In this document: piece after piece, positions 19,104 to 49,800 of the stretch
How the letters are laid out: every line of letters starts with the position of its first letter
How positions within the stretch are numbered: position 1 is the first letter of the stretch
Origin: Coniferiporia sulphurascens
Taxonomy: Eukaryota > Basidiomycota > Agaricomycetes > Hymenochaetales > Hymenochaetaceae
NCBI GenBank assembly: GCA_002794785.1
Contig: NBBA01000001.1
Coordinates: 558,001-622,000, forward strand
Length of the DNA stretch: 64,000 nt
Reading direction: 5' to 3'
The notes under the pieces: model-generated
Databases searched by the model: none
Seen by the model: only the letters and a program-made list of their open reading frames with translations
Told to the model about the DNA's origin: nothing
Made by a program: the position numbers and the translations under genes

Positions 19104-21520
19104 AAACGTATCCTAAGGGGCATAATGGACAGCGAGAAACTGGGAGCTCCACAACCAGTTCAAACTCAGTTTAAATAAACCGATCGACGGATCTGCAAAT
19201 CATGTCATCATAGGGCCTGCAATCAATGATCAACGCGAGCCCTTTTCCCTTTAGCCACCACTACTTACTGCCATGTCTATCTGGACTATCAATGAACAAA
19301 AGCATTGCGTTCAACGCTGTGGCCCTAAGGTTGATATAATTGAGAAAATACGGGATCCTCGTGCAATTGTCCTCAGAGTCGTTCTAGACCCATGATTTCT
19401 TCCGGAACCGCCACCAAAAGGCAGTCTGAACTACGATAGCCGCATTTCCAGTCTTCATACCAATCACTGACGATATATATGAGCACATATGTCCCATTGG
19501 CTCTTCCTAGGTGTGTTTGCATTTGTTTCCATCCGAAACAGCCCACAACAGGCGCGAAAACGCATGCATTCTGGTCCAGACCTCTCGAAGCCCCAGCAGC
19601 TCTTTGACTGCTACACCCATCATCACGCTTTCGTGCTACCATTATCCTCCCCTCTCCCCCTCTCTCCCTCTTGCTCTCTCCTCGTCCCGGACCTCGCGAG
19701 ACGCTACTCGGGCGTGCGACGGACGTCAGACCTGGCGGGGGAGCACAGGGAAGGTGCCTCTTCTCTGTGCTTCCTCGTCGGTGTCGCGGCGTGGAGGAAC
19801 TTGGGGTCGAGTTATACAGACGAGTGCCTTTCTTCATTCCATCTCTTGTGCACTCGCTTCTGCTCCCACAGAATCTAGATCGCGAGACGCTGGGGCGTGC
19901 GACGGATGCGACGGCGATGGCGAGGATTCTCAGGGAGACTGGCCACCTCCTTGGGTCTCTAGAGCTTGAGTCTGAGCGTGAGGGAAGGGATTGAGACATA
20001 TTGGCGAGTCTCAACCACTTCCGTCACATTTACCTACTCGCTTGATCCCTCCCTTAGATCCTATTAGAACGACGTTGGAGTGAGATGTGGTTCCCGGGCG
20101 AGCGACATGTGCCGGTACTGGTGGGACGGCCAGGGGAGGTGCCTCTTCTCTGGTTTTCCCTCTCGGTACCGTGCCATGTCGCGTCGCGCCGTGGAAAGGC
20201 GGGGCGAGGCGGGGCGATTCTGATCCAGACAAGTCCCTATATTCCCATATCCATCCTTTTCTCCGCTTCGCTCCTTTCTCACACGCCTCGTTTTGTCTCC
20301 GGCTGTTTTTCTTGCAGGGCAGGTCAGACAGCCGCGAGACGCTAATGGGCGTGCGACGGACGCAACGGCAATGGCGACGAGACCCGGAGAGGCTGGCCAC
20401 CTCGTCTTGTCTCTGAAGCTTGAGTCTGAGCGTGAGGGATCGGGCCGAGATGGTTCTAGCGAGTCGTTTCTTTTCGTCTCACCAGTACGCTCACTTGGTC
20501 TTTTCTTCGCTCAGCACTTGAGTTAGCAGAAATTATTGGATTTGGGATGGCGGGACGTCTGTACCAGGAGAGCGGCGAGCGTCCGAGTGAACGGGGGAGG
20601 ACGGGGAAGGTGCCTCTTCCCCTGACTTTCCCGTTTGCCCGCGACGTGTCGCGATGTTGGAGATTGGCCCGTGTCTTGGACCTCAGAGCCCTTTTCATTT
20701 TTTCTCCCGTGCTTCATATCTTAGTCCATACTGATCTTGATTAGTCAGGTATTTCCTCGCGAGACGCTTTGGGCGTGCGACGGACGCGATGGCGAGGGCG
20801 AGGGGAATGCAGGAGGCTGGCCACCTCCTAGGTTCCCTGTAGCCTGAGTCAAAGCGTGATGGAATGGTGTTGCGTGTCACGATGAGTTCTCCTTTTCGTT
20901 CTCACCTATACGCTCGCTCGCTCGTCCTCTTCTTTTTTCAGATTCCTTTTGCAGCGGAGCGGACCTACAGTCGGAGGACGCGGCGGGACACGAGGGGGAT
21001 AGTACCGGAGGACCGAGGAGGCTGGCCACCTTCTCGGTTCTTCGATGCTTGACCTCGAGTGTGGAGAGGGGAGGCGGACGCACCGGCGATGGCTGACGAG
21101 TCGTGGAGGCTGGCCACCACCACGACTTTGACGCTTGACCCTCTGCGACCATCATTAAGTGGAAGGAGGAGGGGAATGGGGAGAGTGGGGAGCTGAGCGG
21201 GAGGCAAACCCTCCCGTGAGTTTCTTCGTTATTCATTCACTTATTGAGACAGACAACTGACCTTTTCCTTTTCCCTTCCTCTTCTCTTTTTCCCTACGTC
21301 TTCGTGTCCTCGCTACTCGACGTTTTCCGACGGCCGCACGCGGACCCCTGGAGTTGCGCTACGCGTACGGGACCTGGGCCTGGAACTTGCGAAGCCGGCC
21401 ACCCTCGTGGGTCCGACGGCCCACGCCAGCCAACGGAGGAGGGAGCGCGCTCGAGGACCAAGGAGATGCGGGTTTGCGGGGTGCAGATTTGTCTGGAGAA
21501 GTGTGGACTCTTCTTGCATC
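19104..21520. repeat. large inverted repeat, left arm
   Basis: This 2.4 kb segment recurs in reverse complement at about 26,872-29,320. Matching landmarks include CGAGAAACTGGG (19132 and inverted near 29300), CGGGATCCTCGTGCAA (19351 and near 29050), the segment around GAGCGTGAGGGA (about 20430 and about 27975), and CTTCGTTATTCATTCAC (21226 and near 27180). In a 130-bp stretch compared by eye (20331-20460) only about four to five bases differ; the outer 200 bp at each end are less alike. No long ORF with a recognisable domain is present. The arm contains a series of similar exon-like modules (separate entry). Confidence 0.85.
19690..21430 (+). repeat. array of degenerate exon-like modules inside the inverted-repeat arm
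   Basis: Modules of roughly 100 bp recur at about 19690, 19881, 20331, 20757, 20960, 21061 and 21320. The better ones share CGCGAGACGC, GGGCGTGCGACGGACGC, GGCTGGCCACCTC and, at the end, TTGAGTCTGAGCGTGAGGGA. Three of them read GRATDATAMAR then GHLLGSL or similar in the same phase. They are separated by pyrimidine-rich stretches ending in CAG (for example before 20319 and 20941) and followed by GTGAGGG, which looks like acceptor and donor sites. A second element, GGxGAGGTGCCTCTTC or similar, alternates with them (about 19750, 20135, 20605). They may be repeated exons of an unknown gene, a long non-coding transcript or a satellite-like repeat. Confidence 0.55.
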
Positions 21521-24100: not shown

Positions 24101-25865
24101 ATGCCGATCACATTCACCCACGAGTTCAACACCCCCGTCTACAAGGGCAAGACCTCCTTCAACACCGGCCTCTACATCGGCGGCAAGTTCGTCGACGCCT
24201 CCGACGGTGCCACACATGAGTCCGTTTAGCCGCATATACGCGCATACACCCAGTCCTTACTCTCCTTCCAGCGTCGTCAACCCCTCGACCGGCAAGGTGA
24301 CCACCACCATCTCCATGGCTTCCGCCAAGGACATCGACCTCGCCGTCAAGGCCGCCCGCGACGCGTACGACAACCGCTGGGGTCTCAAGGTCCCCGGTTT
24401 CGAGCGTGGCAAGATGCTCATGCGTCTTGCGCAGCTCATGGAAGAGTGCCAGGAAGAGCTCGCCGCCATCGAGGCGCTCGACAACGGTCCGTCCTGATCG
24501 ATATATACGTCATGATCGTCGCTGACCGCTTCCTCCACAGGCAAGACGTTCCAGTGGGCAAACACAGTCGACGTGCCTGCGTCGATTCAGTGCATCCGGT
24601 ATTACGGTGGCTGGGCGGACAAGAACCAGGGAAAAGTAATAGAGGTGCGTTTATCTCGTCTTCCCCGGATTTCCCCGCATCCGCCTTAAATCACGTGCTG
24701 ATCCGCGACCGATCTGCCCCGCACTTCCTTCCGCCCCGCAGACCGACGAGAGCAAGCTCGCATACACGCGCCATGAGCCAATCGGCGTCTGCGGTCAGAT
24801 CATCCCCTGGAACTTCCCGCTCATGATGATGGCATGGAAGCTCGGCCCCGCACTCGCTACTGGCAACACGCTCGTTCTCAAGCCGTCCGAGTTCACGCCG
24901 CTCACCGCGCTGCGCATGGTTCCCCTGCTCGAGGCTGCAGGTTTCCCGCCGGGCGTGGTCAACATCGTCAACGGCCTCGGCAGCGTTGCGGGTGCGGCGA
25001 TCGCCGGACATCCTGATATTGAGAAAGTCGCGTTCACGGGCAGCACAGCCGTTGGACGGCGCATCATGGAGACCGCTGCGCAGACGAACCTCAAGAAAGT
25101 GACGCTCGAGCTCGGAGGGAAGAGCCCGAACATCATCTTCGACGATGCGGATATCGACCAGGCTGTCAACTGGGCTTCGCACGGTGTGTTCTGGAACCAC
25201 GGCCAGGCGTGCTGCGCGGGTACGCGTATCTTCGTGCACGAGAAGATCTACGACGAGTTTTTGAAGCGCTTTACTGCCAAGGCGGCGTCGCTCAAGATCG
25301 GCGACCCGTTCGGCGTGGAGACGTACCAGGGCCCGCAGGTCTCGCAGCTCCAATTCGACCGCATCATGGGATACATCGACGCGGGTCTGCAGGAGGGTGC
25401 GACGCTCCACGCAGGTGGCGCACGCCACGGGGACGAAGGGTTCTTCATCCAGCCTACCATCTTCACAGACACGCGTCCAGACATGAAGATCGTGCGCGAG
25501 GAGATCTTCGGTCCGGTAGGCGTGGTGATCAAGTTCCACGATGACGAAGACGTGATTCGTCAGGCGAACGACACTCATTACGGGCTTGCGGCTGCTGTGT
25601 TCTCGCAGAACATCACCCGTGCGCTATCGGTTGCGCATAGGCTGCATGCTGGTACGGCTTGGATCAACTGCGCGAACACGATCAACACGCAGATCCCGTT
25701 CGGTGGGTATAAGCAGAGTGGTATCGGGCGTGAGCTTGGCGAGTACGCGTTGGCGAAGTGAGTATTTATGTTTTTCTTTTCGGAGGAAACTGGTATTTAT
25801 ATATCTCCTTCTTAAGCTACACCGCCGTCAAGGCAGTGCACGTTAACCTCGATATGAAGCTCTGA
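24101..25865 (+). CDS. NAD(P)+-dependent aldehyde dehydrogenase
   Basis: Oxidises aldehydes to carboxylic acids (acetaldehyde-type cytosolic ALDH). Five exons: 24101-24219, 24272-24486, 24541-24644, 24742-25757 and 25817-25865, giving 500 residues, the normal family length. The first donor is the slightly unusual GTCCGT; it is chosen because it restores DGATHDVVNPSTGK. Seen motifs: IPWNFPL (Asn of the oxyanion hole), GPALATGNTLVLKPSE (cofactor binding), FTGSTAVG, ELGGKSPNI (general-base Glu), NHGQACCAGTR (nucleophile Cys at residues 303/304), EEIFGPV, and the C-terminus ELGEYALANYTAVKAVHVNL. All catalytic residues are present and the frame is intact. The third intron (24645-24741) and the others are GT-AG. 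It sits in the spacer of the inverted repeat beside NAT9, same strand. I cannot tell the physiological substrate from sequence. Confidence 0.95.
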
Positions 25866-26871: not shown

Positions 26872-29320
26872 TGGAGCAAGAAGAGTCCGTACGGCTCTGG
26901 ACTGATCTGAACTCCGATTCACGCATCCCCCAGGCTCCGCGTCCTCTGACCCCCCTCTTCCGTCCGTCGGCCGGCTTGGGATACCGGAGGCACGGGAGTG
27001 ACCGGCTTCGTGAGTCCTCCGGCTCGAGTCGCGTACGCGAAACGCAATTCCGGCGGATCGGCGTACGGCGCACGGCCGTCGGAGGGTGTCGAGCGGCGAA
27101 GACACGAAGACATAGAAGAAGAAAGAAGAGGGAGGAAAAAGGAAAGATTAGCTAGTTGTCTGTCCCAATATGTGAATGAATAACGAAGAAACTCACGGGA
27201 GGGTTTGCCTCCCGCTCGGCCTCCCACCCGCCTCGTCCCCTCCAACAATCAACGACAGTCACAGAGGGTCAAACGTCAAAGTCGTGGTGGTGGCCAGCCT
27301 CCACGACTCGTCAGCCGTCGCCGGTGCGTCCGCCTCCCCTCTCCACACTCGGGGCCAAGCACTGAAGAACCGAGAAGGTGGCCAGTCTCCTCGGTCCTCC
27401 GGTACTATCGCCTCCGTGTCCCGCCGCGCCCTCCGACTGTAGGTCCACTCCGCTGCAAAAGGAATCTGAAAAGAGAAGAGGAAGGACGAGCGAGCGTGTA
27501 GGTGAAAACGAAAAGGAGAACTCATTGTGACAATGCAACACCAGTCCCTCACGCTACGACTCAGGCTGCAGGGAACCCAGGAGGTGGCCGGCCTCCTGCA
27601 TTCCCCTCGCCATCGTCATCGCGTCCGTCGTACGCCCAACGCGTCTCGCGAGAAAATACCTGACTAAAGAAGAATCAGCCTGGTCTAAAATATGAAACAC
27701 AGGAGAAAAAATGAAAAGGGCTCTGGGATCCAAGACACGGGCCGATGTCCAACATCGCGACACGTCGCGGGCAAACAGGAAAGTCAGGAGAAGGGGCACC
27801 TTCCCCATCCTCCCCCGTTTACTCGGACGCTCGCCGCTCTCCTGGTACAGACGTCCCATATCCTAAATCCAATTTTTTCTGCGAACCCAAGTACTGAGCG
27901 AAGAAAAGACCAAGTGAGCGTACTAATGAGACGAAAAGAAACGACTCGCTAGAACCATCTCAGCCCAATCCCTCACGCTCAGACTCAAGCTTCAGAGACA
28001 AGACGAGGTGGCCAGCCTCTCCAGGTCTCGTCGCCATTGCCGTCGCGTCCGTCGCACGCCCATTAGCGTCTCGCGGCTGTTTGACCTGCCCTGCAAGAAA
28101 AACAGCCGGAAACAAAACGCAGCGTGTGAGAAAGGAGCGAAGCGGAGAAAAGGATGGATATGAGAATATGGGGACTTGTCTGGATCAGAATCGCCCCGCC
28201 TCCCCTCGCCCTGCCCTTCCATGGCACGGCACCGATAGGGAAAACCAGAGAAGAGGCACCTCCCCTGGCCGTCCCACCAGTACCGGCACATGTCGCTCGC
28301 CCGGGAACCACATCTCACTCCAACGTCGTTCTAATAGGATCTAAGGGAGGGATCAAGCGAAAGGGTAAATGCGACGAAAGTGGTTGAGACTCGCCAATAT
28401 GTCTCAATCCCTTCCCTCACGCTCAGACTCAAGCTGCAGAGACCCAAGGAGGTGGCCAGTCTCCCTGAGAATCCTCGCCATCGCCGTCGCGTCCGTCGCA
28501 CGCCCCAGCGTCTCGCGATCTAGATTCTGTGGGAGCAGAAGCAAGTGCACAAGAGATGGAAGATGGAATGAAGAAATGCACTCGTCTGCGTAACTCGACC
28601 TCCAGTTCCTCCACGCCGCGACACAGACGAGGAAGCACAGAGAAGAGGCACCTTCCCTGTACTTCCCCGCCAGGTCTGACGTCCGTCGCACGCCCGAGTA
28701 GCGTCTCGCGAGGTCCGGGACGAGGAGAGAGCAAGAGGGAGAGAGGGGGAGAGGGGAGGATAATGGTAGCACAAAGGCGTGATGATGGGTGTAGCAGTCA
28801 AAAGCCGCTGGGGTTTCGAGAGGTCTGGACCAGAATTCATGCGTTTTCGCGCCTGTTGTAGGCTGTTTCGGATGGAAACAAACGTAAACGCACTTCTGAA
28901 AAGCCAATGGAACATATGAGACCATATATATCGTCAGTGGCTGGTATGAAGACTGGAAATGCGGCTATCGTAGTTCAGACTACCTTTTGGTGGCGGTTCC
29001 GGAAGAAAACATAAGTCTAGAACGACTCTGAGGACTGTTGCACGAGGATCCCGTATTTTTCTCTCTTTCCTCAGCTGTAGAGTTGCAGAGTTAAAAACTA
29101 AAGCTTTTTTTCCATTGATAGTGTATACCGTATCAGTGTGACGGTCATGGAGGTAGTACTAGTGGTCGAAGGGAAAAGGACTCACGTTAATCATTAATTA
29201 ATATTGCAGGCTATGATGCGATGATCTGCAGATCAGCGCATCGGTATTTTAAAGCGGAGTTGTATTTCTGGTGCTTGGAGCCCCCAGTTTCTCGATGTCT
29301 ATTTAGTGTACTTTTAGGTC
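26872..29320. repeat. large inverted repeat, right arm
   Basis: Reverse-complement partner of 19,104-21,520, carrying the same exon-like modules in opposite orientation. Both arms therefore read inward towards the NAT9/ALDH spacer. No recognisable protein domain is encoded; the long minus-strand frames here are the same low-complexity frames as the plus-strand frames of the left arm. Confidence 0.85.
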
Positions 29321-29984: not shown

Positions 29985-31803
29985 ATGGCGAGCAAGACGG
30001 CGACGGCGCTTGCGCGCGTTAAGCGCATGTCTCTGACATTCTTGGGAACATCTGGTGCCGGAGGACCCTCACGCACCCGTGCCGGCACTGCAATCAGCCT
30101 TAACTTTGAAATCGATGGCAAGAGCAGGCCGCAGCACTGGCGTGAGTCCTTGCGACCGCGTACGCGTCCCTCTACGCTTTTGACTACTAAAACATGTATA
30201 TACAGTGGTGGACTGCGGAGAAGGAACCCGCCGGCAGATGGACCGCGCTCTCCGCCCGGTCATCATGAAAGAATGTGTTCGGAAGGTCTTTGTTTCGCAA
30301 GTTAATAGTGAGCGTTCGCACCTCCTTCTCATAACTTGTTTCTCAGCATTGTATAAGTATGCTAGGCTCATACACACCTGTTTTACATTTCCCCCCTAGT
30401 GGAACGTTGTATGGGGATTATTCCGTTGATGTACAACGTCATGAACCCCCAAACCGTCGGAAAAAGTCGGAAAGAAAATGCGGTACGCGTTTCCTCCTTA
30501 TATCTCTCATCCCTGCGAGCTGGGACGATGCGCTGAGGTTGAAGTGCTAAGCGCTTGCGTGTAGCCGTTGCTAGAGTTCTATGGTCCACGTGGTCTGCGT
30601 AAATTCATCCGCAATGGCTTGAGGGAAAATAATGTATGTCTGTTCGGCAAGTATGTGGTGCACGAGCTGCATCTGCCGATCAGAACAACAAGCCGCCAGG
30701 CGCTGCTGATGGATAGTAATGCAGGCGAGGTTTCTGAAAAGCCAAAAAAGGAAAACAAACACCGGAACGAGATCCCTGGGAAGGATATACTGTGCATACC
30801 CGAGATAAGACGTCTGTGGCTGGATATCATACCCGAGTCACCGGGCGTACGAGTCGATGCTGGCCCTAGCATGGAACGGAGTCCGTCCGTCTCCTCTCCT
30901 CTCCACCATTTCCAGCTTTCCCTATGCCTGGTCACATGTTTCCTGGATATGACGCTGATGCTAGTGCAGGGGGAGGTCTGGGTTTCGTTTTCACCGAGCG
31001 CGTTGCTCCAAATGGTTGCATTTCCCGGAAAATCGCCATTCTAGGGAGCACGAAATACCCTCACCCTATGCAGAAGGTGACCATAGACGCGACGGTTATG
31101 GTTCACGGCTTGAGATATGCATGGGTCCCTCCTGGCGTATCAAGCTCCGCAAAGGGGCAGCAAACCAGCATGGGAGAAGATGTCGAACCCCTGTCCGAAG
31201 GTGTTTCTGTTACGACACAAGCTAGTACTGGTGAATCGCCACCTGAAAGCGAGATAACCGACGTAAAATCTGCCATCGTAAAAGACGAACAGGCTACAAT
31301 ACCTCAAGTCAAGTTTGTAAAACCTATAGACTCATCTCGTAAACAAGATGATGACGCAGAAAAGACGAAGCTCATGTCATTTGCCAACCTACGTTCGCGT
31401 GCCGCCCTCCATAATCACGTAACACCAGACATGGTGGGCGAGTTCGCGCGCTCTGTCCGAGCGCGCAGGCTCTTCCTCAGCCAGTTTTCCGAGAGGTACG
31501 TCGATCTACCGTTACCATGCTCATCCTACCCACTTTGGTCGTGACGTTGTCTGTCCTTTTTATCGAAACATCTTTTCCCGCAGGTTTGCCTCATCAGAGC
31601 CGAGCGTCTATCCAGATGGTCTGGAAGGCGGCGGCGAAAGCCCGCTCCGTTCACCTGTGATGGCCGAGATTGAGCGGCAGGCGAGTGAGGCGTTTGGCGG
31701 ACGCGCAGTCGCGACGCATGACCTACTTGTCGCCTTCGTAGACCTGATCAAGCTGACAGGGTCGTCTGCGGAGACACTCGAAGACGCCGAATCGTCTTCA
31801 TAA
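29985..31803 (+). CDS. tRNase Z (ELAC)-like protein, predicted inactive, copy A
   Basis: Six exons: 29985-30141, 30206-30307, 30400-30482, 30565-30880, 30970-31495 and 31584-31803; 467 residues, frame intact. The fold is tRNase Z-like: LTFLGTSGAGGPSRTR, LVDCGEGTRRQ, LLEFYGPRGLRKFI, RVDAGPS, LGFVFTER, KIAILGST, ATVMVHGLRYA, VTPDMVGEFARSVRARRL, MAEIERQASEAFG. Known tRNase Z enzymes bind two zinc ions through HxHxDH and further His/Asp residues. Here the position of THLHGDHC reads SQVNMERC (split by intron 2), the usual GDT reads GST, HEAT reads HGLR, and HST reads HVT. The His before the GYVF-like strand is also absent. tRNA 3'-end cleavage is therefore unlikely. A Ser/Thr/Glu-rich insert of about 100 residues precedes VTPDMVG. 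It may bind RNA or a partner without cutting. Confidence 0.85.
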
Positions 31804-32231
31804 AGTGGCCGCATGCAATCGACTAGGCTGTTCCACGCTTCAGTCAATAGTACTGTATGTATGTTTCTAGAACTGCAGGACTGTGCCTTGGGTCGGAGCA
31901 AACCTCTGCATTTACAGCTGGGTACTCAGATCGGCCTAGTATTTGACTGGAGACGCTAGTGTCGCAGACTATCTATAGCGTTAGATTCAATGAATTTACC
32001 GGCGTTACAGTTTACTTAGTCTAAAAGACATGTATCCACTGACACACTCATAGTGTTAGTACATTTGGTATATGATGCGGACATTCGTTCCTTACCTCAA
32101 GTTACCGAGCTCGAGCTTTACATGTTTCTGCTGTACCGACTTTCTTCCGTACTTAAGAGTCTAGTTATACACCATATATTACAGTTGCTACTTCAAGTAC
32201 TTGTCCGGGCCGAACTTCCGAAGCTATGCGT
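31804..32231. other. intergenic between copies A and B
   Basis: No gene seen; 3' flank of copy A and upstream region of copy B. Confidence 0.5.
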
Positions 32232-32267
32232 CACGTGTATTACGCGCTCCGCAAATGTGATCACGTG
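32232..32267 (+). promoter_or_regulatory. paired CACGTG boxes upstream of tRNase Z-like copy B
   Basis: CACGTG at 32232-32237 (CGTCACGTGT) and 32262-32267 (GATCACGTGA), 30 bp apart; the second lies 84 bp before the ATG at 32351. Confidence 0.55.
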
Positions 32268-32350
32268 ATATTTCACGTTTGCCGAATCCTGCCCTTCGGA
32301 GAGCGGCCTTGAACTTCAAGCGACCAATTCTTCCTGCGGAACAGTCGGCG

Positions 32351-34226
32351 ATGGCAGAAACAACGCTCGCGCGCGTTGGGCGCATGTGGCTCACATTCCT
32401 GGGTACAGCCGGCGCTGGGGGCTGCTCGCGCACACGTTCTGGTTCTGCGACAAGTCTCAGCTTCGAGACGAGCGATGGAGTGCAAAACTGGCGTGAGTTC
32501 GATTCCCAACCCTCGTCTATGTCTTCTGGCTAATCTTCGTGTCCTGTTAACGTAATGGCTAGTGGTGAACTGCGGCGAAGGTACCAGACGGCAACTGTTT
32601 CGCACACACCACCCAAGTATCAAAAGCAGGAGTATTCGGAGGGTGTTCGTGTCGCAATTGGATAGTAAGCGTTCCTCCTTCCGTTGTAAAGCCATATTTA
32701 GTGTACGGGGGTTAATGTACCTTTCGACCTTCCTTCCTCTAGTGGATCATTGCATGGGTATACTGCCGGTAATGTCCTCCGTCATGGATATCTACACCGT
32801 AAGGAAACGCCAAAGTGAGGTACGCTCTCCCGACTCTATCCCCTCCCTGCCTAGTCAATCACGTGTTGAGCTATTGTGCTGTAACACTGCGTCTGTTTTC
32901 CTCTGTTAGGCATAGAATCTAGCACTAATTGCTTATGTTTAGTTGACACTCGAGTTCTACGGTCCAAAAGGTCTCCGCCGATTCATCCACGAAAGCATAC
33001 GATTGAATAGAATGCATGTGGGAGGAAAATACGCAGTACACGAGTTGCAACTGGAGGGAAAAGATGATACAGCCTACTGGGAAAATATAATGTACTCCTC
33101 AACAAACAAGACTCGTGCCGAGAGTCCTAAAAAGGGGGATAAACACCCGAACGAGATCCTCGGAAGAAATCTCTTGTGCAAACCCACGGATGGAAAACTG
33201 TGGCTAGATATCGTGCCCGAGTCGCAACACATACGAGTTGATGCTGGTTTGGGCCTTACGACTGGTACGTACGTTACCTCTTGACTGTCTCACGATCTTC
33301 CTCATTCATTTTATTTCCTTTCTCTGCAATATTAACGCTTGTATGAGAGCAGATGGGGGGTTAGGTTTCGTTTTTACAGAGCGCGACGCCCCGACAGATC
33401 GTACCCCTCGCAAAGTCGCCATCTTAGGCTGCGCGGAATATTCGTCTCATATGAAAGAAATTTCCATGGACGCAACGGCTATGGTGCATGGTATGAGATA
33501 CGCAAGGATTTCTCCGGAATTAGCAAATTTTGAAAAAGGAGTATATGTTCCCCTTTTGGAGGAAGTAAAACGACCGTCCGAAGACGACCCAGGTGCGACT
33601 AAAGTCAACACAAGCGAATCACCCTCCTTAGACGCGACCGATTTGGACTCCGTTGCCACCGATTCGAACGACCTTCACGGCGTACGGGAGCCAGACTTAC
33701 GAACGCCAGATGTACAGACGTCGGTTCCTCCAGCTGAAATTGCAGAGCCTTCGATGCCCTTATTTGAGTTGCTAGAACAAGGCGGAAAAACGTTGCATAA
33801 TGACCCGAGGCCCGGCTCGCGCCCAAATTTCACTCGCCGCTCGTATGTTACTCCGGGTATTGTAGGAGAGTTCGCTCGATCTGCGCGCGCGCAACAGCTC
33901 TACCTCAATCACTTCATACCAAGGTGTGCTATGCCGCTACCACGTCACTCGTCCCACGGACACTACACCTTTTTCCCATACCATTGATGCACGGTATTTT
34001 CCGCAGGTTTCCTCAAGCCCTACCGCCTACCCGACGTTCTGTTTTAAGAGACAAAGTCTCGCCTAATGAACCCATAATTTCGGAGATCGAGCGGCAGGCA
34101 ACAGAAACGTTTAAAGGACCCTGGGTAACTGCAGCATACGATCTGCTCGTCGTCCCGGTGCTGCCGGTAGAATTGAGCGCACCTGTGGAGGCACCTGTAG
34201 AGGCTTCTGAGGATACAGAGAAATGA
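32351..34226 (+). CDS. tRNase Z (ELAC)-like protein, predicted inactive, copy B
   Basis: Same six-exon structure as copy A: 32351-32492, 32563-32664, 32743-32819, 32943-33264, 33353-33923 and 34007-34226; 477 residues, intact. Shared blocks: LTFLGTAGAGGCSRTR, LVNCGEGTRRQ, LTLEFYGPKGLRRFI, KHPNEILGRNL, LGFVFTERDAP, KVAILGCAEY, ATAMVHGMRYARISPE, VTPGIVGEFARSARAQQLYL and SEIERQATETF. The metal motif reads SQLDMDHC, so Asp and His of the canonical HxHxDH are kept but both leading His are lost. GDT is GCA, HEAT is HGMR and HST is YVT. With one or two possible ligands left, catalysis is improbable. A long acidic/Ser-rich insert (about 33560-33830) lies before VTPGIVG. Confidence 0.85.
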
Positions 34227-34991
34227 ATACGAGTCCGTGGTCGACTATCAACAGGGAATGACGCACTAAGTGTATCACGTTGGAAAAGGGACGTTGTCGA
34301 GCACAGGCACTGCAACGTCTTAACGCCGACGCTGGCGTATTGAGCAATGCACATTTTCCGGTCCCTGATGCTGTCTCTTGGCGGAACGGACCTTCGCATT
34401 TGCTGGGCGACCGCAGCTGTGTATTCGGCTGTAGATTGACTCGGTATTGACTGACGACATTGCGCCTGCTAGATCGTGATACAGACTTCGCTTTGGCTGT
34501 CTTAGAATTATCCTAGGTTGTACGGTAATCATCTTTAATCTTAGACGATGCACGTATTTAAAAAAATAAGATGGTAAGGTCCAAAAAGAACTTGAAAGTC
34601 TGGTCGTAAAGTTGGAACCCGAGAAATCCGACTGTGTTATTACGTGTTCTTCAGTGATCTCTGCCTCTAAGATGGGAATAATAGTGTCTAGACCGGACGC
34701 TACGCAGCACAAAAGTTATCAGTCCTTAGTAATTGTACGTTGTACGCTCTCTACTATCATATGCCCTCTCTTACAAAGTCACATCCGAATTTAAAAAACT
34801 GCTTTAAATGCGAGAACACCTCAAGGTCTTATCGCAAAAATCAGCCAGAAATATTCATACATTACACATATGCTCCCATGCAATTTTTTTGATGCCTTTA
34901 CTATAGGGTAGAAACCGAAAATTCAAAGTTTGTCTAAGGATGTGACTTTGAAAGAGACGCCATACGATAGTACCGTTAGTACGGGTGACCG
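34227..34991. other. intergenic between copy B and the retroelement insertion
   Basis: AT-rich, no gene seen. Confidence 0.5.
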
Positions 34992-36001
34992 TAACGACTT
35001 GATGATGATGATGAAGGTTTATTAGGTGCCGTGTAAATACATATCTACTTAAGCGCCCCGGCCCCCGAAGGGGCCGGAACTAGAAGTTGTGATGGTAAAT
35101 TTAAAAAGAAGGGTTCCAGTCCTCACCGGTGAAAATCCTGCACTCCCGCGTATTCTCTCAACCCTGTTTCCGAAGCCGTGAGCGTCAGACAGACGCGATT
35201 CCTCTCTCCTTTGTAAACCGTCCCCCCCCAAAAAGATTCCGAAATTGTGCAGGCGGCCTGTCAAATTGCTGATTGAGGGCCTTGGAGTGGTGTGCCCATT
35301 CCCTAGTTAGGAGATTGGGCATCATTGTGGTGCGTGGATCCATCTCGGCAAACCTCTGCATATAATTGCTATGGAGAGCTGGGCTGGGCTGGCCTGTTAG
35401 GGTGGGTCACCTGCTGGTGCCCAAATCGTGGTGTGGGAAAGACCCCGCTGCGGTAGCGGGGGCCCGGTTGCGAAGTGGCGATCTGAATGGCTGTGTGGGT
35501 CGTGTGGGAAAAAGAGTCATGAGGGACCAGGTCAGAAATAAACAGTGGGAACATCGTCGGTGTCGCAGTTTCCTTCGGCCAAGGCAATGAAGGGACTGTC
35601 CCCTTACCCAATGTTTCAGAGTTTGAAGGCGTGCGTACGTCGCACTCAGCGGGTCATCGTCCTTGGTGTTTACGTTGTTGCCAGTCCAGTCATGACCCCT
35701 CCATGGGCAGTCAGTAGTTCTGGTGCAAGAGGCGGGCCACTCACACTTCCAACCACCAACCCCTTATTAGGGGGTCCGGTGGGGTAGGTGTTGGGGGGGT
35801 GGCAAGTCCCCACGCAATGAAGTCGGCATCTACCCCAGGACGTTAACATCATAGCCCCCCCAAGTGACCCCAGGGTATGGTCGGGGTAGTGCCTGCAAAC
35901 CACTCAGGCCCCCTTCCTTAGACGGATCCCCCCTCGCAGCACGCTCTCCAAAGGAGATGGTGGTGGTAAGAGGTCAAGAAGGGATGGACCATAACGACTT
36001 G
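34992..36001 (-). mobile_element. non-LTR (LINE- or SINE-like) insertion with 10-bp target-site duplication
   Basis: The 10-mer TAACGACTTG occurs at 34992-35001 and 35992-36001, exactly 1000 bp apart, as expected for a target-site duplication. Read on the minus strand the element ends CCTAATAAACCTTCATCATCATCATC directly before the repeat (AATAAA followed by a short ATC-type tail; the two parts abut), the mark of target-primed reverse transcription. The interior is GC-rich and unlike its flanks, with no recognisable reverse transcriptase. It is therefore a 5'-truncated LINE or a SINE. It splits the promoter side of copy C from copy B. Confidence 0.7.
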
Positions 36002-36070
36002 CTGCAGGGCCGGTCCTTTTGACGCGTGCTGTCACAGCAAGTCACATACTTAATCCGCCCGTCACAGAAA

Positions 36071-36076
36071 CACGTG
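36071..36076 (+). promoter_or_regulatory. single CACGTG box upstream of tRNase Z-like copy C
   Basis: AACACGTGAG, 51 bp before the ATG at 36127. The partner box seen upstream of copies A, B and D is not present; the retroelement ends only 70 bp further upstream. Confidence 0.45.
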
Positions 36077-36126
36077 AGAAGTTGAGTTCCAGCTCGGCTG
36101 CTTCAAGTCGTTCATCTGCAACGGCG

Positions 36127-38042
36127 ATGGCTGCAATGGCGGCGATGGCGAGTAGAGCGGTCCCGAAGCTCGCGAGCGTTGGTAGCATGTCCCTTACATT
36201 CCTGGGCACATCTGGCTTCGGCGGGTTTTCACGAACGCGTTCCGGTCCTGCAATCAGTCTCAACTTTCAGGCTCTCGACTCGGACGGCCCGGGGACGAGC
36301 ATGCGTAGTTGGCGTAGGTCTAATTCTACTCTCGTGTCCGCGTTTATTGATTGGGACTTTATTAACCATCACTGCTAGTCGTGGACTGTGGCGAAGGCAC
36401 TCGTCGCCAATTGGCTTGCGCAAGTAGCCCATATATTAGTGACAGCAGTGTTCGGAAGGTATTTCTGTCGCAATTGGATGGTGAGCGTTCCTCCTCTGAC
36501 AACTTTCTTCCACTGCAACACGCGCGTGTATGTGATCGTGTGCAATTTTAATTCGCCTTTTCTTCTTCCATAGTTGACCATTGTGCGGGCATTATACCAC
36601 TAATGACTAGTGTCATGAGCACCCGCTCAGTCAGCCGCGACGAGGAACTTAAGGTATATCCCCCTTTTCAAGTATCCCTCCTCCTCACAAAGATGGGGCA
36701 AATACGCTGGCTATCTAGTATTTTCTCAATGAGTCTGCGAGGCTTATTTTTTGTTGGAAATCCGGGATGAAAACTTTCAAGACTAAACTTTTGTGTTCAG
36801 CTACTACTCGAATTCTATGGTCCAATGGGCCTGCGCAAATTCATCCGTGACAGTTTAGGAGTAAACAACGTGCGGCTACGGGGTCTTTACAGGGTACACG
36901 AGCTAGCGACTCAATATGTGTACTCCCGACGCCAGTTGATGGACGGAATTACGAACGGGGATTTTGGATACAGTGCTGAAGAGGGCATTGAAAAGCATCC
37001 AAATGAGCTTCCAGGAGGTGATCTCGTCTGCAAATCCGGTCAGAGACAACTGTGGATGGACATCGTGCCCGATTCGCCACACATACGGGTTGATGCCGGC
37101 TCAAATGCAAAACGGGGTGCGTCTATCTCCCATCCGCTGTATCTTTCCGTCCGTCCTTCAGCCTTTCTGTTTTGTATCAGATGCTCATGAGTGAAACAGG
37201 GAAGGTTCTGGGTTTCGTTTTCACGGAGCGTAGTGCTCCGACGGGATGCCCTTCTCGCAAGATTGCTGTTTTGAGCAGCGCATCATATCCTACAGCCATG
37301 CGAAAAATAGCAATGGACGCGACAGTAATGGTACATGGTGTGAGAAATGCTCGGATTTCCCCAGAAATACTCGACCGTGGGAAGGGGCTACGTACAGTAG
37401 AAGGGAGGTCATCTGATCACTTATCCGAGGACGCTACAGTTGTATCGGGAATCAATCCGAGCGAACCCCCCTCCAAGGACTCCATCGATGCAGTCTCTTC
37501 TGTTACAAATCCCGACGACCTTCAGGACACACAGGTTTTAGAGTCTTCAGCCAGAACCGTGGGGTCTTCAGATTCCTTGTCTCGTCTCGAAAACAATAAC
37601 GTGGAAGAGCCGAAATTGTACTCAGCGGCCAGCCTCCGCTCGCACGCTGCACGTCAAGGCTATGCTACTCCAGACATGGTGGGCGAGTTTGCTCGCTCTG
37701 CTCGCGCGCGCCAGGTCATTCTCAACCAGTTTATCCCAAGGTGCGTCTACTCGCCGCTGCTTTACCCGTCTCGCTAACATCGCCCCACCACTCCTTTCTG
37801 GTGCGCGTTATTCGCACAGGTTTGCGGACCCCCGTAGATCCCACCGCTTGTTGACATCGCAGGACGACCCACCCTCGCTACGTATGCGCGTAATGGCTGA
37901 TATCGAGCAACAAGCAATAAAGGCATTTGGCGGACATCAAGTAACCGCTGCGACTGACCTGCTTGTTATCCCGGTGGAGCCGGAGTCTCCGCCTGAGTCT
38001 GCGGAGACGGAGGTTCCTGTGAATACAGAAGAACAGGTATGA
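36127..38042 (+). CDS. tRNase Z (ELAC)-like protein, predicted inactive, copy C
   Basis: Six exons: 36127-36313, 36379-36480, 36574-36653, 36801-37116, 37200-37740 and 37820-38042; 482 residues, intact. ATG 36127 is chosen because it opens the frame; the downstream ATGs at 36136 and 36145 are also possible. Blocks: MSLTLFGT-like LTFLGTSGFGGFSRTR, LVDCGEGTRRQ, LLLEFYGPMGLRKFI, KHPNELPGGDL, RVDAGSNAKRGKVLGFVFTE, KIAVLSSASY, ATVMVHGVRNARISPE, ATPDMVGEFARSARARQ and MADIEQQAIKAFGG. HxHxDH is SQLDVDHC; GDT is SSA, HEAT is HGVR and HST is YAT. The insert before ATPDMVG is Ser/Asp/Glu-rich. The interior introns sit at the same codons as in the other three copies. Confidence 0.85.
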
Positions 38043-38316
38043 GCCTGTGATCGAATGTCGGCGAAGGATAGTGCACTGTATATCTCGTTGCTGGCGCGAG
38101 CGCTGGATTTATTTTATTGCCGATGCTGACATGTTAAACAATGTTCATTCTTCTCATTTTCGGAATCATGTCTCGAGCCTCGACGAGAATGTAATCTTAC
38201 GTATGTATTAGCTATCGTTGTACATCTAGTGCTGTATAGTAAGAGTCGTTGGTGCTTCCACTAGACGTAGCCATTCCGAATCTGGGCCGGCCGGCTAACG
38301 CGTTCTAAGCGCGGGT

Positions 38317-38346
38317 CACGTGCTTACGTACTCACTATATCACGTG
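38317..38346 (+). promoter_or_regulatory. paired CACGTG boxes upstream of tRNase Z-like copy D
   Basis: CACGTG at 38317-38322 (GGTCACGTGC) and 38341-38346 (TATCACGTGA), 24 bp apart; the second lies 65 bp before the ATG at 38411. This is the same geometry as copy A. Confidence 0.55.
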
Positions 38347-38410
38347 AAGGAGCCGAGGCCGACGCGGCGGCGCACGAAAACTCCCGCAACTCGTCTTCAT
38401 CCGCAAAGGG

Positions 38411-40328
38411 ATGGCGAGTATGGTGAAGCCTATGCTTCCGCGTTCGAAATACCTATCTCTGACCTTCCTAGGTACGTCGGGTGTGGGCGGGCCGTCATCC
38501 TCGCGCGCTGGCGCTGCGATCAGCATTAACATGGGGAACGAGTCTAATAAAAACATGCAACACTGGTGTGAGTCTGGCCGTTCCACTTCCGCTCTCAACG
38601 TTCAATCTGACTGCTGTCGAAATCCACAAAAAAAACAGTGGTAAACTGCGGTGAAGGCACTCGTCGGCAGTTAGCCCGTGCATCTCACCCCACCATCGGT
38701 GTCCGCAATGTCCGGAAGGTCTTCCTGTCGCAAGTCAACAGTGTGTGTCCCTTTCCTCTAACAAGTCCTTTTCCTACCCTATAGACGAGGGTGTATGGAG
38801 CTGACTCTCGTTTCTTCTTTCTTTCCTTCTTTCTTTCTTTCTTTCATTCCTCCCGCAGTGCGCCAATGCATGGGCATCATTCCACTAATGGCCAATATCA
38901 TGAACTCTCACTTCACCGGCAAGGAAAACGAGGTGCGTTTTTTCTCCCTTCGCGGTGTCCGCTCAGAGATGGGGTATGCCAATCGGACATCTGGTTCCAG
39001 CGTGACGAATTTGCAAGATGTCATCTATCTTTCGTCCGGAATTTAGAATGAAGAGTCTGTCTCTAAGTGCTCATTTCTAGCTGCTATTGGAGTTATATGG
39101 TCTAGCGGGACTGCGTAAATTCATTCAAGATAGCCTAGAAGTAAATGACGTACGCCTGAGCGGCAATTACATGGTGCACGAGCTGCATCCGGCGACCGAC
39201 CTCGAATACGAGCAGAAACTGTCGAATTTCGATAAAGCAGCCAAGGCTTGGCGGGACAAAAGCAGGAAAAAGAGCAAGCATCCAAACGAGATTTTCGGAA
39301 AGGATCTAGCATGTAAAAACGAAAATGGCCGTTTGTGGCTCGATATCGTGCCAGACTCGCCAGATTTACGTGTCGATGCATGTCTGGGCAGGATGCAGAG
39401 TGCGTTCATCTTGTCTACTTCTTCTAGTTGTGCCAATGCATTTGATCTCATGTCTACATTTCTTCATTGTACTCGTAGAAGAAGGTCTGGCATTTGTTTT
39501 TACGGAGCGTCGGCCTAAGGGAGACGGCGCTTCGTTAAATTACGCCACCCGCAAGATCGTCATTCTCGGCAGCACGATGTATCCGCCGGCAATACGGAAC
39601 GTGGCTATGGATGCATCAGTGTTAGTTCACGGTATGCAGAATGCACTGATCCCTCCCGAGGTGCTGAGTTCTGCAAAAGAGTCGCACACGACTTTAAAAG
39701 ATCCAGTTGAACGTCAGTCCGGGGATGCCTCCACTGTAACAGAAGCCAGGGTCAATGAAATACATCTTCGGGACGTAGCGAATGCGAAACCTGTCGCTGC
39801 TATCCTGAACGGCAATTGCGACACGCAAACTGCTAAATCTACGACTAAAATTACAGAACCTTCAGATTCTTCAACCTTTTCAAAGAGTAGCTCCAAGAAT
39901 CCGGGATTGCGTTCAACGGCCCTAGATGCCGTTTACTCTGGCTACGTTACTCCAGATATTGTGGGCAAATTCGCTCGCTCCGTCCGCGCGCGCCGGCTCT
40001 ACATCAACCAGTTCAGTCCGAAGTACGTCATACTACTATTAAATCACTCGTCCTGCAAATTCCGCCCCCCTTTCTTTCATCTTATTAATCTACGTGTCCT
40101 CTACATAGCTTTCAGTGCCCCGAACCGTTATCCACTACAAACAGCTTAGAAAATAGCCATGTAAACCTTCGTCGTTCGCTCATAATGGCCGAGATCGAAC
40201 GCCAGGCGACAGAAACTTTTAGAAGCTGCCCGGCCATCGCAGCACACGACCTGCTCGTCGTCCCCGTGCTCCCGGGGAAGCAGGTTGCGCCTGTGGGGAG
40301 CACTGGGAATACTAAAGCATCCGCATAA
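38411..40328 (+). CDS. tRNase Z (ELAC)-like protein, predicted inactive, copy D
   Basis: Six exons: 38411-38567, 38639-38740, 38859-38932, 39081-39399, 39479-40022 and 40109-40328; 471 residues, intact. Blocks: LTFLGTSGVGGPSSSR, LVNCGEGTRRQLARA, LLLELYGLAGLRKFI, KHPNEIFGKDL, LAFVFTERRP, KIVILGSTMYPPAI, ASVLVHGMQNALIPPE, VTPDIVGKFARSVRARRL and MAEIERQATETF. This is the most degenerate active-site motif: HxHxDH is SQVNMRQC; GDT is GST, HEAT is HGMQ and HST is YVT. Intron 2 (38741-38858) carries a (TTTC)n tract. It is the last member of the array, all on the plus strand. Confidence 0.85.
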
Positions 40329-41322: not shown

Positions 41323-41970
41323 TTACGGCTCCCCGATGTCTTCATTCCACTCCTGACAAACGCAATCCAGTTTATTGGGATCCATTGAAACAGACGCAAA
41401 CAAGGAATAAACTTGCCTCGGGATGTTCCTCTATGAACTTGGCCATCAAGTCCTTGCACTCTTGATTGTCAACAACAACGACCTCGACGCCCCGCGATCG
41501 CAGATATTCCTCGCCGCCTACGAAATTAGCGTTTTCGCCGATTACTACACGGGGGATGTTGTAGAGAAGGATTGCACCGGTGCACATGTCGCACGGGCTA
41601 TGAACAATTCAGCCTTCTTTTCGTGCGCCGGTAAGGCGGTGAAGACTTACCTGAGAGTGGTGTACTACGAAAGTTTGATGGTATGAAGTTAGCACTGGTT
41701 AAAAGCGATGCATAAATGGCGCACAATTGTCGAGTTCCGGTAGACGCTCGCCTTCAATCTTCCTGCCTGCTCAAGGGCAGCTGTCTCTCCATGAAGAATG
41801 GCAGAGCTCTTCTGGACGCGCTGATTGTGTGAGGCGCTGAGGACTTCCACCACACCGTTCACATTCGCCAGGATGGAGGAACCAATCGGTACACCGCCTT
41901 CACTTGCGCTCTTTTTGGCTTGTTCAATAGCAAGACTGAGCCCATATGCATCGTCGAACTTCGCGTCCAT
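41323..41970 (-). CDS. FCY1: cytosine deaminase (Fcy1 type)
   Basis: Zinc-dependent deamination of cytosine to uracil in pyrimidine salvage. Exons on the minus strand: 41970-41725, 41664-41651 (14 bp), 41597-41417 and 41352-41323; 156 residues, against 158 in yeast Fcy1. Motifs: KSASEGGVPIGSSIL, HNQRVQKSSAILHGETAAL (His and catalytic Glu of HxE), YTTLS, PCDMCTGAILLYNIPRVVIG (the two zinc Cys), EYLRSRGVEVVVVDN and the terminal EWNEDIGEP. The 14-bp exon encodes YTTLS and is needed to bridge STI to PCDMC. The last intron (41416-41353) is of the GC-AG type (GCAAGT). All active-site residues are present, so the enzyme should be functional. Confidence 0.93.
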
Positions 41971-42917
41971 AGTTCAGAGCCGCGGTGGTTGTGGCAAGAA
42001 ATTTTCGGACTTCACGCCGCTATCGACCGATACCTAGATGCCAGTGGCCGCCGACCTTATCACCCCGGATAAATTTCTGTCATTTTGGGGGCCTGATTAT
42101 TTTTCATTTACCGGACGATAATCATGGGACAAGTTCTGGATCGGAACGAAGTGTCCATGCAACATGCTTACAAGGCGGCCAGTACATGATAAATAAACCG
42201 ACCCCAGGGTTGCAGAGGAATGTCATTACGTAACCCCAAAAATGCTACTGCGAGGCTCCCGACAAGTACTTTCGTCAACTACACTCATGTTCGCCTCAAT
42301 CGCTTCTCAGTTTTTTTGTATTTCACTTCATTTTTTCGTTCTGATGCGATTGTCGTATCAGTATCCTCCGAATACTGTGGTCATAAGTCGCATTTTCGTG
42401 ACGACACTTGTCGAGGCTGTGATACTCGCGCTTACACCGCCCCTTCATCAAGTTCGTCCCCTTTTTTCATAGCACGGGAACATCTACGTTCTCCAGAGGC
42501 CTTCTGAGGTGCTTCCTTTTCCCCCACCCAACAGTTTCTGCAGTGCCTTCTTGATGTTCTGCGACCTCACGCTCCATAGCTTTAGTTGGATAAGTACACC
42601 TGCTTATCTCCAGCGTTGGACGTCGCTATTCAATTCACGATTGCATAAGCACTGCCTCACACCCACGAATCCCCCTTATGGGTGTTATGGGGCTTTAGAC
42701 GTACTACGGCCTTTCTGAGAGTTTCAATTCAAAGGACTTCTTCCTATTTTCATCCGGATGCTGCGGATGTATAAGGGCAAGACCGGTGGTATGTTACAGT
42801 TATCCAACGTCCGTGTGGAATCAGCGCCATACACACCACAGTGACCTGGCGACAGCTTCACGTCCGCATTTTTCTTGCGATTCTCTCTGAACTACTGGGG
42901 CAAAAGCAAACTTCCCA
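41971..42917. other. intergenic, divergent promoters of FCY1 and the first helical-domain gene
   Basis: No gene seen on either strand that can be supported. Confidence 0.5.
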
Positions 42918-46862: not shown

Positions 46863-49800
46863 TCAGAAGTCGCTCGAGTCATCAATATCGGAGGCGACAA
46901 TCCCGCGCACACCGCCACTTTGCGTCCGTCCGCCGTCTCTTGCGAACGCATTCCGGATGCGCGATCCGCCGCCGCCGCCATTCCAGGTCCCACTTCCAAC
47001 ACCATTTCCGTTGGCATTGCCACCACTATACGTATCACGCATCACGACACTTGCAACAGGTGTACGAGAAGACGCCGCCGTTCCTGTGCGTTGTCGTATA
47101 CTCCCGGAGACCGGGTGGCGTGACACACGCGACTCCTCCGACTGCGACGAGAGTTCTTGGAACTCCCCATCGGCATCGGCATCTACGTCGTCCGGCTCAC
47201 GATCGTCCACAACTGGGAAAGGGAAGTACTCGGGTGCTGTCGAGGATGCGGAAGACGCGTGCTCACGCCTGGCGGTACTTGAGCCGGACTTCCCGGATCG
47301 CATCTTCGACGAGCGTCGAGATTTGTTCTCTTTATTTTCTCTATTCCCCTTCTCCTGCTCGCGCTCACGCTCACGCTCAAGTTCCCGTTCTCGCTCCATA
47401 TCCTTCTCACGTTCACGTTCGCGATCCCTGCTTGCGCTCCCATTTCTGCCTTCGGGTCCGGACTGTCGCTGCAGACTGCTATACGACGATGAAGCGGACA
47501 CGTACGAATCAGTCGTCGCAGTGGAGTCCGCCGAATTCGCAGGCGACATGGGCACAGCTGAGAGCCACTGGGGGTGCGCTGCACGCGGTGTCGGAGTCGG
47601 CAGGCTAGGATCAACCCATTCCTCATCGTCTCCTAGTAAGTCAATATCGTCGTCCTCCGGTTCTCGATCCCTGGACGTCCTGAACAGATTCCTCTTGTCC
47701 CTGACCTTGCTTTGCCGCTTGCGCCTGCGCGTGTCGGAGGGCCTCGGCTTGCGCATGAGTTGTAGCCCCTGGTCCGGGCGTAACTGGGTCAACTGGGTCC
47801 TCTTCTGTCGTCGCCTCTTCGCTCCGTCTGTTACGACTCCTGCCATCCTCGCCCTCGTGGTCACCATCTACAGCGCTTTCTCTATCATGTTCCCCTTCCG
47901 GTTCGGGCGATAATGAGAACGCATCCTCTGGTCCATCGATGTCGAGTTCCACTGCATCCACGTCTGAAACAGACTCCATTCCCAAATCGTCGGAGTCTGA
48001 CGGCCACGACGGGGGCTCATCTTGAATTGCGAAGATGGCTTTGTACTTGCGCGACATCTACAAGAACATCGACCGTAAGTGAGTTTGGGAGAAAAAGAGA
48101 GAAATAAAACATAAATACGAACCACCGTGACTCTCTCGCGCAGGTCCCGCCAGTCGCGTTCATCGCGGCACAAGAACCCTATAAGCATGCTTGGGTCGAG
48201 ACCAGAAAGAGGCATCTTGCGTACGCGGTCACAGTGGAATGTGCGTAGCTCCGAAGGTGTGTATGAAGAAACATAGTGCTCCTGCATCGCATCCAATTCG
48301 CCTGTAGCACCAAACAAGCTTTGTCCCGATGCGGATCCTTGCGAAGGCGCGGGCGACATTGACATTCGAGAAACGTACGAAGATGCAGATGACGATGTTT
48401 GCATATGTCCGGGTCTGTGCATTGGTTGCGCATCGCGGTAAGATGAAGGTGGTGAGTCAGCTGGTAAGCGCATCGTTGCATGACCAGTCGTCGGTGGGTG
48501 CCGGAAGGGCACTGCCGGGCGCGCGTGATGCGGATCGAGATAAAACAAGCTATCCGCCTGCGCACCCACAAAATAATAGGACGATGACGGTCGTCCGCCG
48601 GCAATGCCGACCGATTGCGGGAACGTGTACAATTCCTGGTAAAGACGTCATCAGATTTATTTATTTCTCGACGACCATTTGGCCCGCGGGGAAGCAATGA
48701 GAGAATCCGCACCTTCACAGCATCGTAATAAATCGGGTTGACACAGTCAATGCCGAGCCTTATACCAATAAGCACAAGCACGGGACGTTGTCCCCAAATG
48801 GATATAAGGCTCTGCGGCTGCGCGCTACGTCGTCGCCTGGTATTGGGTGATGCACTGCCCATGCGTGAGTGGCGGAACATGTACGGGCCAGCGTTGGAAG
48901 CAGCAAGGACGTCCGTTTCGTACACGACACCGTCGCTGGCGACGGATACACCCAATCCTGCCTCTGCGAAGGCGTGCACGAGGGTCCTGAGAGATAAGAA
49001 GCGGTTAATAATTGAATGTCTTATGTACTTCGATGCGATGGTGGAGCGCGCGACGTCGGGAATGGACAGATAAAACCGATAACGCACTTGATGGCACCGG
49101 CAGCAGTGCTGGGTCCAAACCAAGACCCAACATCCTTTCCGAGGTCTTTTCCCGCTAATGCCATGCGATGGACACTAAACGGACAGTGTGGATCGGGCGA
49201 GTCAAAAAACCAAGTCAAAATCTTGACATAAGTAGCATAGTCGGAAGTGGGCACGGGGTGGGGTGGTCTGCGCCAGTCTAATTGTGAATGCCAAGATGAG
49301 CAAATGTGCAGGCATGAGGCAAATGTACACATACCTCGACCGAGATGAAGGTGGATCAGCGCATTTGCAAGTAAAGACTGGCCGGTCCGCAACATGCAGC
49401 CCCATCCCGCATCGCTCGTCCATCCCTTCTCCCCGCCGACCACCCAATTCCATTTCCGCGGAGATGCCGCCACAGGCTGGGGCATTACCATGCTGCAAGC
49501 TTCCGTTTCAAGCTGAGCGAGCGACTGGTCGCGGATCGGTGGGTAGTGGCTCCGATACGTGAGCCAGACGCGCGACGTGAAATCTGCGTAGAAAATTGGC
49601 GGCCAATGCGCGCTTGGGTGTTTATTAGCATTATGCTGGATCATGCTCGGTTCTGGTGAAGACGTGGCAGCGCGCATGGAAGAAACCGAGGTACGAAACG
49701 AGGAGGAGCGGCGCATGTCGAGCGAGCTCCGTCTGCCAGACGGGGGCGGCGAGGTTGGCGGTGGTGGCGGCGGCTCGTAACCGGAGTGTTGTACACCAAG

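Follow-up and report, generated by a model that had tools for sequence, protein, structure and literature searches.

We examined a tandem array of four genes in a 64,000-nucleotide stretch of DNA (the window) from Coniferiporia sulphurascens, a wood-inhabiting fungus whose genome assembly comprises 39.3 Mb in 31 contigs. The genes, designated A to D, lie in tandem on the plus strand at positions 29985-40328 of the window and encode predicted relatives of short tRNase Z (tRNase Z^S) that lack most or all of the seven zinc ligands. Rebuilt gene models, each with six exons, GT-AG introns and a frame open up to a single terminal stop, bore out the four genes of an initial annotation of this DNA in coordinates, lengths and open frames. 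The genes are listed below with the zinc ligands retained and the orthologue found in Coniferiporia weirii (percent protein identity).

29985..31803, plus strand: gene A, predicted tRNase Z^S pseudoenzyme, 467 amino acids (aa); exons 29985-30141, 30206-30307, 30400-30482, 30565-30880, 30970-31495, 31584-31803; 0/7 ligands, His of the HST motif kept; orthologue P0002 (77%)
32351..34226, plus strand: gene B, 477 aa; exons 32351-32492, 32563-32664, 32743-32819, 32943-33264, 33353-33923, 34007-34226; 3/7 ligands; orthologue P0003 (63%)
36127..38042, plus strand: gene C, 482 aa; exons 36127-36313, 36379-36480, 36574-36653, 36801-37116, 37200-37740, 37820-38042; 2/7 ligands; orthologue P0001 (70%), with AlphaFold model
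38411..40328, plus strand: gene D, 471 aa; exons 38411-38567, 38639-38740, 38859-38932, 39081-39399, 39479-40022, 40109-40328; 0/7 ligands; orthologue P0004 (78%), with AlphaFold model

The motif residues read in the initial annotation were recovered. Motif II (HxHxDH) is SQVNMERC, SQLDMDHC, SQLDVDHC and SQVNMRQC in A to D, the Asp of GDT is Ser, Cys, Ser and Ser, the Glu of HEAT is Gly in all four, and the His of HST is Tyr in three, gene A still having His. The claim that nearly every zinc ligand had been lost holds strictly for A and D; gene C retains two ligands, and gene B retains the Asp and last His of motif II and the His of motif V. Each C. weirii orthologue keeps the same ligands as its partner gene. 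Among the eight proteins none has a complete motif II, the motif III His or the motif IV Asp, and two have the motif V His; the HEAT Glu is Gly throughout, and the HST His remains in gene A and its orthologue alone. All eight have Gln for the first His of motif II. Because this change and that of the HEAT Glu are shared by every member, the two losses most simply predate the fourfold duplication. The array's contig also carries a canonical gene, E, which lies about 83 kb upstream at C1:503215-504686; its 384-aa product has HLHFDH, GDT, HEAT, GHST and LNHFS all present. Residues were counted in 120 listed relatives of the 709 found with E: 113 keep all seven zinc ligands, six are gapped at a ligand (one of these also has an Arg) and one has a plain substitution. 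The losses in A to D are therefore beyond chance.

The assignment to the tRNase Z family stood up to profile and structure searches. An NCBIfam library scan of the orthologues P0001-P0004 found no profile that beat RNase Z, and Foldseek and VIA ranked RNase Z entries first for the orthologue models. Pfam matched A to D to nothing but Lactamase_B_2, sub-threshold for B and C, with no match for A and D. A profile built from all eight members matched ELAC1 at E 1.3e-26. Other metallo-beta-lactamase (MBL) families were rejected, as RNase Z was best in NCBIfam, Foldseek and VIA and no rival profile came ahead. Pfam scans with E up to 10 found no beta-CASP domain in A to D or the four orthologues. 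AlphaFold models of P0001 and P0004, for which structure alignments of 56 sequences were used, support a retained tRNase Z fold.

Five introns occupy the same alignment column and phase (1,1,0,1,2) in A, B, C, D and E, so that the conserved intron positions noted initially extend to the canonical gene, which has no insert between motifs III and IV. In a tree of 36 selected rows the eight proteins formed a 100/100 clade of four pairs, and a tree of 32 selected rows placed them on the armless side of a 100/99 branch (27 rows vs 5); their place inside the armless side was not resolved, and the stem is long (1.98 in the 36-row tree). At the level of sequence, common descent with the armless fungal tRNase Z^S is demonstrated. 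The location of E on the array's contig would fit an origin by local duplication. Grouping of the family with the Coniferiporia canonical gene alone, as an origin within Coniferiporia would have it, was disfavoured in the approximately unbiased test (p 0.021); grouping with Hymenochaetaceae-type canonical genes gave p 0.079 and with Hymenochaetales p 0.364. The family may be older than Coniferiporia, with losses elsewhere. Beyond this genome it was seen in C. weirii alone, in two protein searches (4 of 6 and 4 of 28 hits) that scored only the 8000 and 7999 candidates sharing most words. Twenty hits of these searches lay outside both the family and the 120 relatives; 19 have HxHxDH, the exception being P0005 (298 aa). 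Canonical genes were found in Fomitiporia, Sanghuangporus, Phellopilus and Phellinidium (partial), among the matches listed.

A whole-genome search with gene C returned 25 exon matches, of which 20 fall in the array. Two more belong to a canonical short tRNase Z of the array's contig, two to an armed short tRNase Z of contig 2, and the last to a partial copy of the armed form. No fifth family member appeared in this search, and the array's four are a lower bound. Gene A had no match in a plasmid similarity search. By eye, and without a gene model, the armed form (C2:1862.2-1863.5k) reads complete. Since E and the armed form both read complete, at least two short tRNase Zs of this genome are apparently active. 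The partial copy of the armed form lies at C2:1872.3-1872.5k, about 9 kb from the complete one, with KKT as its HST motif; it is possibly a further decaying or changed paralogue. A tRNase Z^L was not located: PF13691 had one match only, inside the armed short form, and a DNA pattern for the histidine motif had none in the genome, where an intron within the motif would hide the gene. The genome gave four PF12706 and eight PF00753 profile matches, some of which were followed up; one on C3 was unlike tRNase Z^L by eye.

To judge selection, we drew on C. weirii (a basidiomycete of the Hymenochaetales), which holds the nearest named relatives by protein, for protein comparisons and computed the ratio of nonsynonymous to synonymous substitution rates (dN/dS, omega) among A to D. 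All four genes have 1:1 orthologues predicted at full length, and E is 94% identical to its own. The locus tags of the C and D orthologues are consecutive and their contigs equal in size, consistent with a preserved C-D neighbourhood. Pairwise codon models over 343 core codons gave omega of 0.24-0.33 (likelihood ratio statistic 50-84 against omega = 1). In a 70-codon linker omega was not distinguishable from 1 in five of six pairs (the sixth, A-C, had a statistic of 7.3), dS not being estimable in two. This HEAT-HST linker spans 90-106 aa in A to D, is much shorter in E, is rich in S, T, P, E, D, K and Q, and has low confidence in the AlphaFold model of P0001 (residues 300-354). Neutral mutation to the observed identity was simulated 2000 times per gene, with substitutions only and no indels counted; the frame stayed free of stops 12 times for A, 0 for B, 3 for C and 19 for D, compared with 731 times for E at 94%. 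Path lengths to the orthologues were 0.24-0.66 for A to D vs 0.058 for E, about 4 to 11 times faster evolution. As judged from these codon and protein comparisons, the intact frames are held under purifying selection. The initial annotation had preferred a selected non-catalytic function to decay and had named dN/dS near 1 with no transcripts as evidence to the contrary; the core values lie well below 1, and together with the ligand-matching 1:1 orthologues and the neutral simulation they argue for selected function.

The proteins have also become basic. Over 297 core columns the eight members carry a net charge of +5 to +16 (isoelectric point 9.0-10.1), whereas canonical proteins over the same columns (n=118, leaving out P0015, P0061 and P0066, which are truncated or gapped in motif II) have a mean of -1.4 (standard deviation 3.0, range -9 to +8), and E has -2. 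Ligand and catalytic columns contribute 2.2 of the mean shift of 11.9. The charge rose by at least 0.6 in 25 columns and fell by at least 0.6 in 13. Arg is invariant in all eight members at E positions 47, 69, 204 and 283, where E has Thr or Asn, and also replaces K280 of E in all eight. One new Arg lies within motif I, and the Thr of HEAT is Arg in six members and Gln in two. Motif I is the most conserved of 13 regions compared, with 40/40 positions identical between orthologues and 93% among paralogues; orthologue identity is 49/56 in the PxKxRN loop, 70/76 in the HST helix and about 0.5-0.6 in linkers. The motif II loop is identical between orthologues at 33/36 positions and among paralogues at 54%, the pattern to expect of a pocket remodelled separately in each copy. 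The initial suggestion of RNA binding gains indirect support because of the basic core and invariant motif I. Positive charge with a lost cutting site hints at binding of RNA or other proteins in place of cutting.

Descent, loss of the di-zinc site, purifying selection and the basic shift of the core are all established by these comparisons. Since the proteins lack both a complete zinc site and a flexible arm, we infer that they act by binding. We consider it reasonably probable that the array is a clade of catalytically dead armless tRNase Z^S paralogues that work by binding RNA ends, as dimer partners, or both. Most likely they would hold tRNA acceptor-like RNA ends without cutting, through the kept motif I, much of the PxKxRN loop and former active-site positions that are now Gln, Gly and often Arg; the kept acceptor-binding elements and basic charge would suit such gripping. 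In RNase Z dimers each subunit's arm serves its partner's site. Each of A to D could occupy one place in a short tRNase Z dimer, where an armless, siteless partner would silence or restrain activity, and the four would thereby tune or block the genome's two apparently active short forms. A more specific version is tentative: the zinc nuclease site would have been swapped for an Arg/Gln phosphate-holding pocket and a basic surface, the four copies gripping different tRNA-like 3' ends uncut, as decoys or guards (e.g. against tRNA-primed retroelements) or as poison subunits of short tRNase Z dimers.

Several observations weigh against the binding reading. The 13 columns that moved towards negative charge include near-invariant canonical Arg positions beside motif III and ahead of HST, and the family's lowest charges, +5 in B and +8 in P0004, fall within the canonical range. 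The simplest account of the shift is a single event in the ancestor of these eight related proteins, and motif I and the PxKxRN loop may have been kept for folding, not for RNA binding. No special constraint was found on the nine former ligand and catalytic columns (30/36 identical between orthologues vs 1007/1308 in the rest of the core; 2952 of 10000 random sets reach this). Paralogue dS is 1.3-1.75, so omega is approximate; besides the two pairs without a linker dS, saturation of dS against E meant that no omega could be taken from those comparisons. The canonical sequences in the AlphaFold alignments lean the models towards a tRNase Z fold. Gene B and its orthologue retain three of the four residues of one zinc site, which leaves room for weak metal binding or residual chemistry.

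The closest known proteins are the fungal armless tRNase Z^S group AbiTrz4/LbiTrz3/CciTrz3/PplTrz3 (Zhao et al. 2010, PMC2942849). A to D resemble this group in the exon structure of its copy in this genome (E), in having no motif III-IV insert, in motif I and most of the PxKxRN loop, and in their side of the tree. The short forms aligned in that paper have motifs I-V, HEAT and HST, whereas A to D have lost the zinc and catalytic residues, have a basic core and carry the long linker. An Agaricus match, P0123, has 469 aa, the length given there for AbiTrz4, from which we infer that the two are the same protein. In its discussion of Basidiomycota short-form genes the same paper raises, without favouring it, pseudo-tRNase Z status. 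The N-terminal half of tRNase Z^L (ELAC2/Trz1) is likewise a tRNase Z-derived MBL domain without a zinc site (PMC11649783) and has pseudo-motifs (PMC2942849), but it forms one chain with the catalytic half and bears the exosite, whereas A to D are free-standing and armless. CPSF100 (CPSF2) and INTS9 are MBL-fold nuclease relatives that have lost catalytic residues and pair with active paralogues (PMC4819959). They share with A to D the loss of zinc ligands on a kept MBL fold (from the residues of A to D and the models of P0001 and P0004), yet they belong to mRNA and snRNA 3'-end machinery, and CPSF100 has the beta-CASP domain (PMC4819959) for which A to D gave no match. The ELAC2 half, CPSF100 and INTS9 are thus precedents for a lost site and for partnering. 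The initial annotation knew of no described family of this kind, and none was found in literature searches of open-licence PMC papers; within that literature A to D are MBL-nuclease pseudoenzymes that are new in combining a free-standing, armless form with tRNase Z^S descent.

Among other explanations, the one that fares best is that A to D regulate through protein-protein contact, as dominant-negative or scaffold partners of the active short tRNase Zs, and do not themselves touch RNA. Short tRNase Zs act as dimers (PMC11649783), armed and armless heterodimers have been suggested for Basidiomycota (PMC2942849), and active MBL nucleases have inactive partners in CPSF100 and INTS9 (PMC4819959). 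Armed and armless short forms that both read complete are present in this genome. A pure partner would not need the basic shift, however, and we regard this as possible but doubtful; it overlaps the partner half of the binding reading, so that the chances given to the readings are not shares of one whole. Conversion to an enzyme with a rebuilt mono-metal or metal-free site for another reaction is unlikely. Judged from residues, three ligands of one zinc site (Asp, His, His) are left in gene B and its orthologue; B adds a Cys at the GDT Asp position, and the motif II loops, nearly identical between orthologues, diverge between paralogues as if every pocket served a separate task. Yet that Cys is Ser in the orthologue of B, the HEAT Glu is Gly in all eight, and A, D and their orthologues have none of the seven ligands. 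A role in conflict or defence (allorecognition, antiviral or anti-element) appears still less likely. The family is tandem, fast evolving and so far confined to one fungal lineage, and it lies about 16 kb from an NLR-like pair of open reading frames (ORFs) and beside dispersed repeats. Nevertheless, each copy has a stable 1:1 counterpart across the two species, unlike a birth-and-death set, core omega is low, and NACHT-WD40 genes are common in such fungi; the allorecognition or antiviral role floated initially found no direct support beyond that ORF pair. Dying pseudogenes, duplicates drifting without catalysis, are very improbable and already largely refuted, for the fast evolution and a linker indistinguishable from neutral in five of six pairs, which speak for drift, stand against unbroken frames and splice sites, full-length orthologues, low core omega and the rarity of stop-free neutral runs.

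Around the array, the following features were recorded in the window:

35000..35986, dispersed repeat of about 987 bp in the gap between B and C, splitting the array and not part of the genes
24643-25758, plus strand: aldehyde dehydrogenase ORF, flanking
41692-41973, minus strand: cytidine/deoxycytidylate deaminase-like ORF, flanking
48182-50628, minus strand: Atg4-type peptidase C54 ORF, flanking
61647-63164, plus strand: Ras-type GTPase ORF, flanking

The flanking ORFs have no evident link to tRNA processing. Elsewhere in the genome the 987-bp repeat is matched 48 times; about 25 of these matches are nearly full length, with identities of 76-87%. A second repeat occurs in inverted copies at 28000-28964 and 19440-20408 (93% identical), with at least 15 further near-full-length copies on other contigs. 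The NLR-like pair, at 10342-14192, consists of a NACHT/NPHP3_N ORF and, after it, a WD40 ORF in which 14 repeats were matched; a further WD40 ORF lies at 745-1509.

With its four copies, an undamaged relative in the same genome and C. weirii orthologues for comparison, the array offers a natural experiment on the roles of tRNase Z besides cutting. It bears on why some Basidiomycota keep two short forms, one of them armless, a question for which the account of Zhao et al. (PMC2942849) offers only suggestions.

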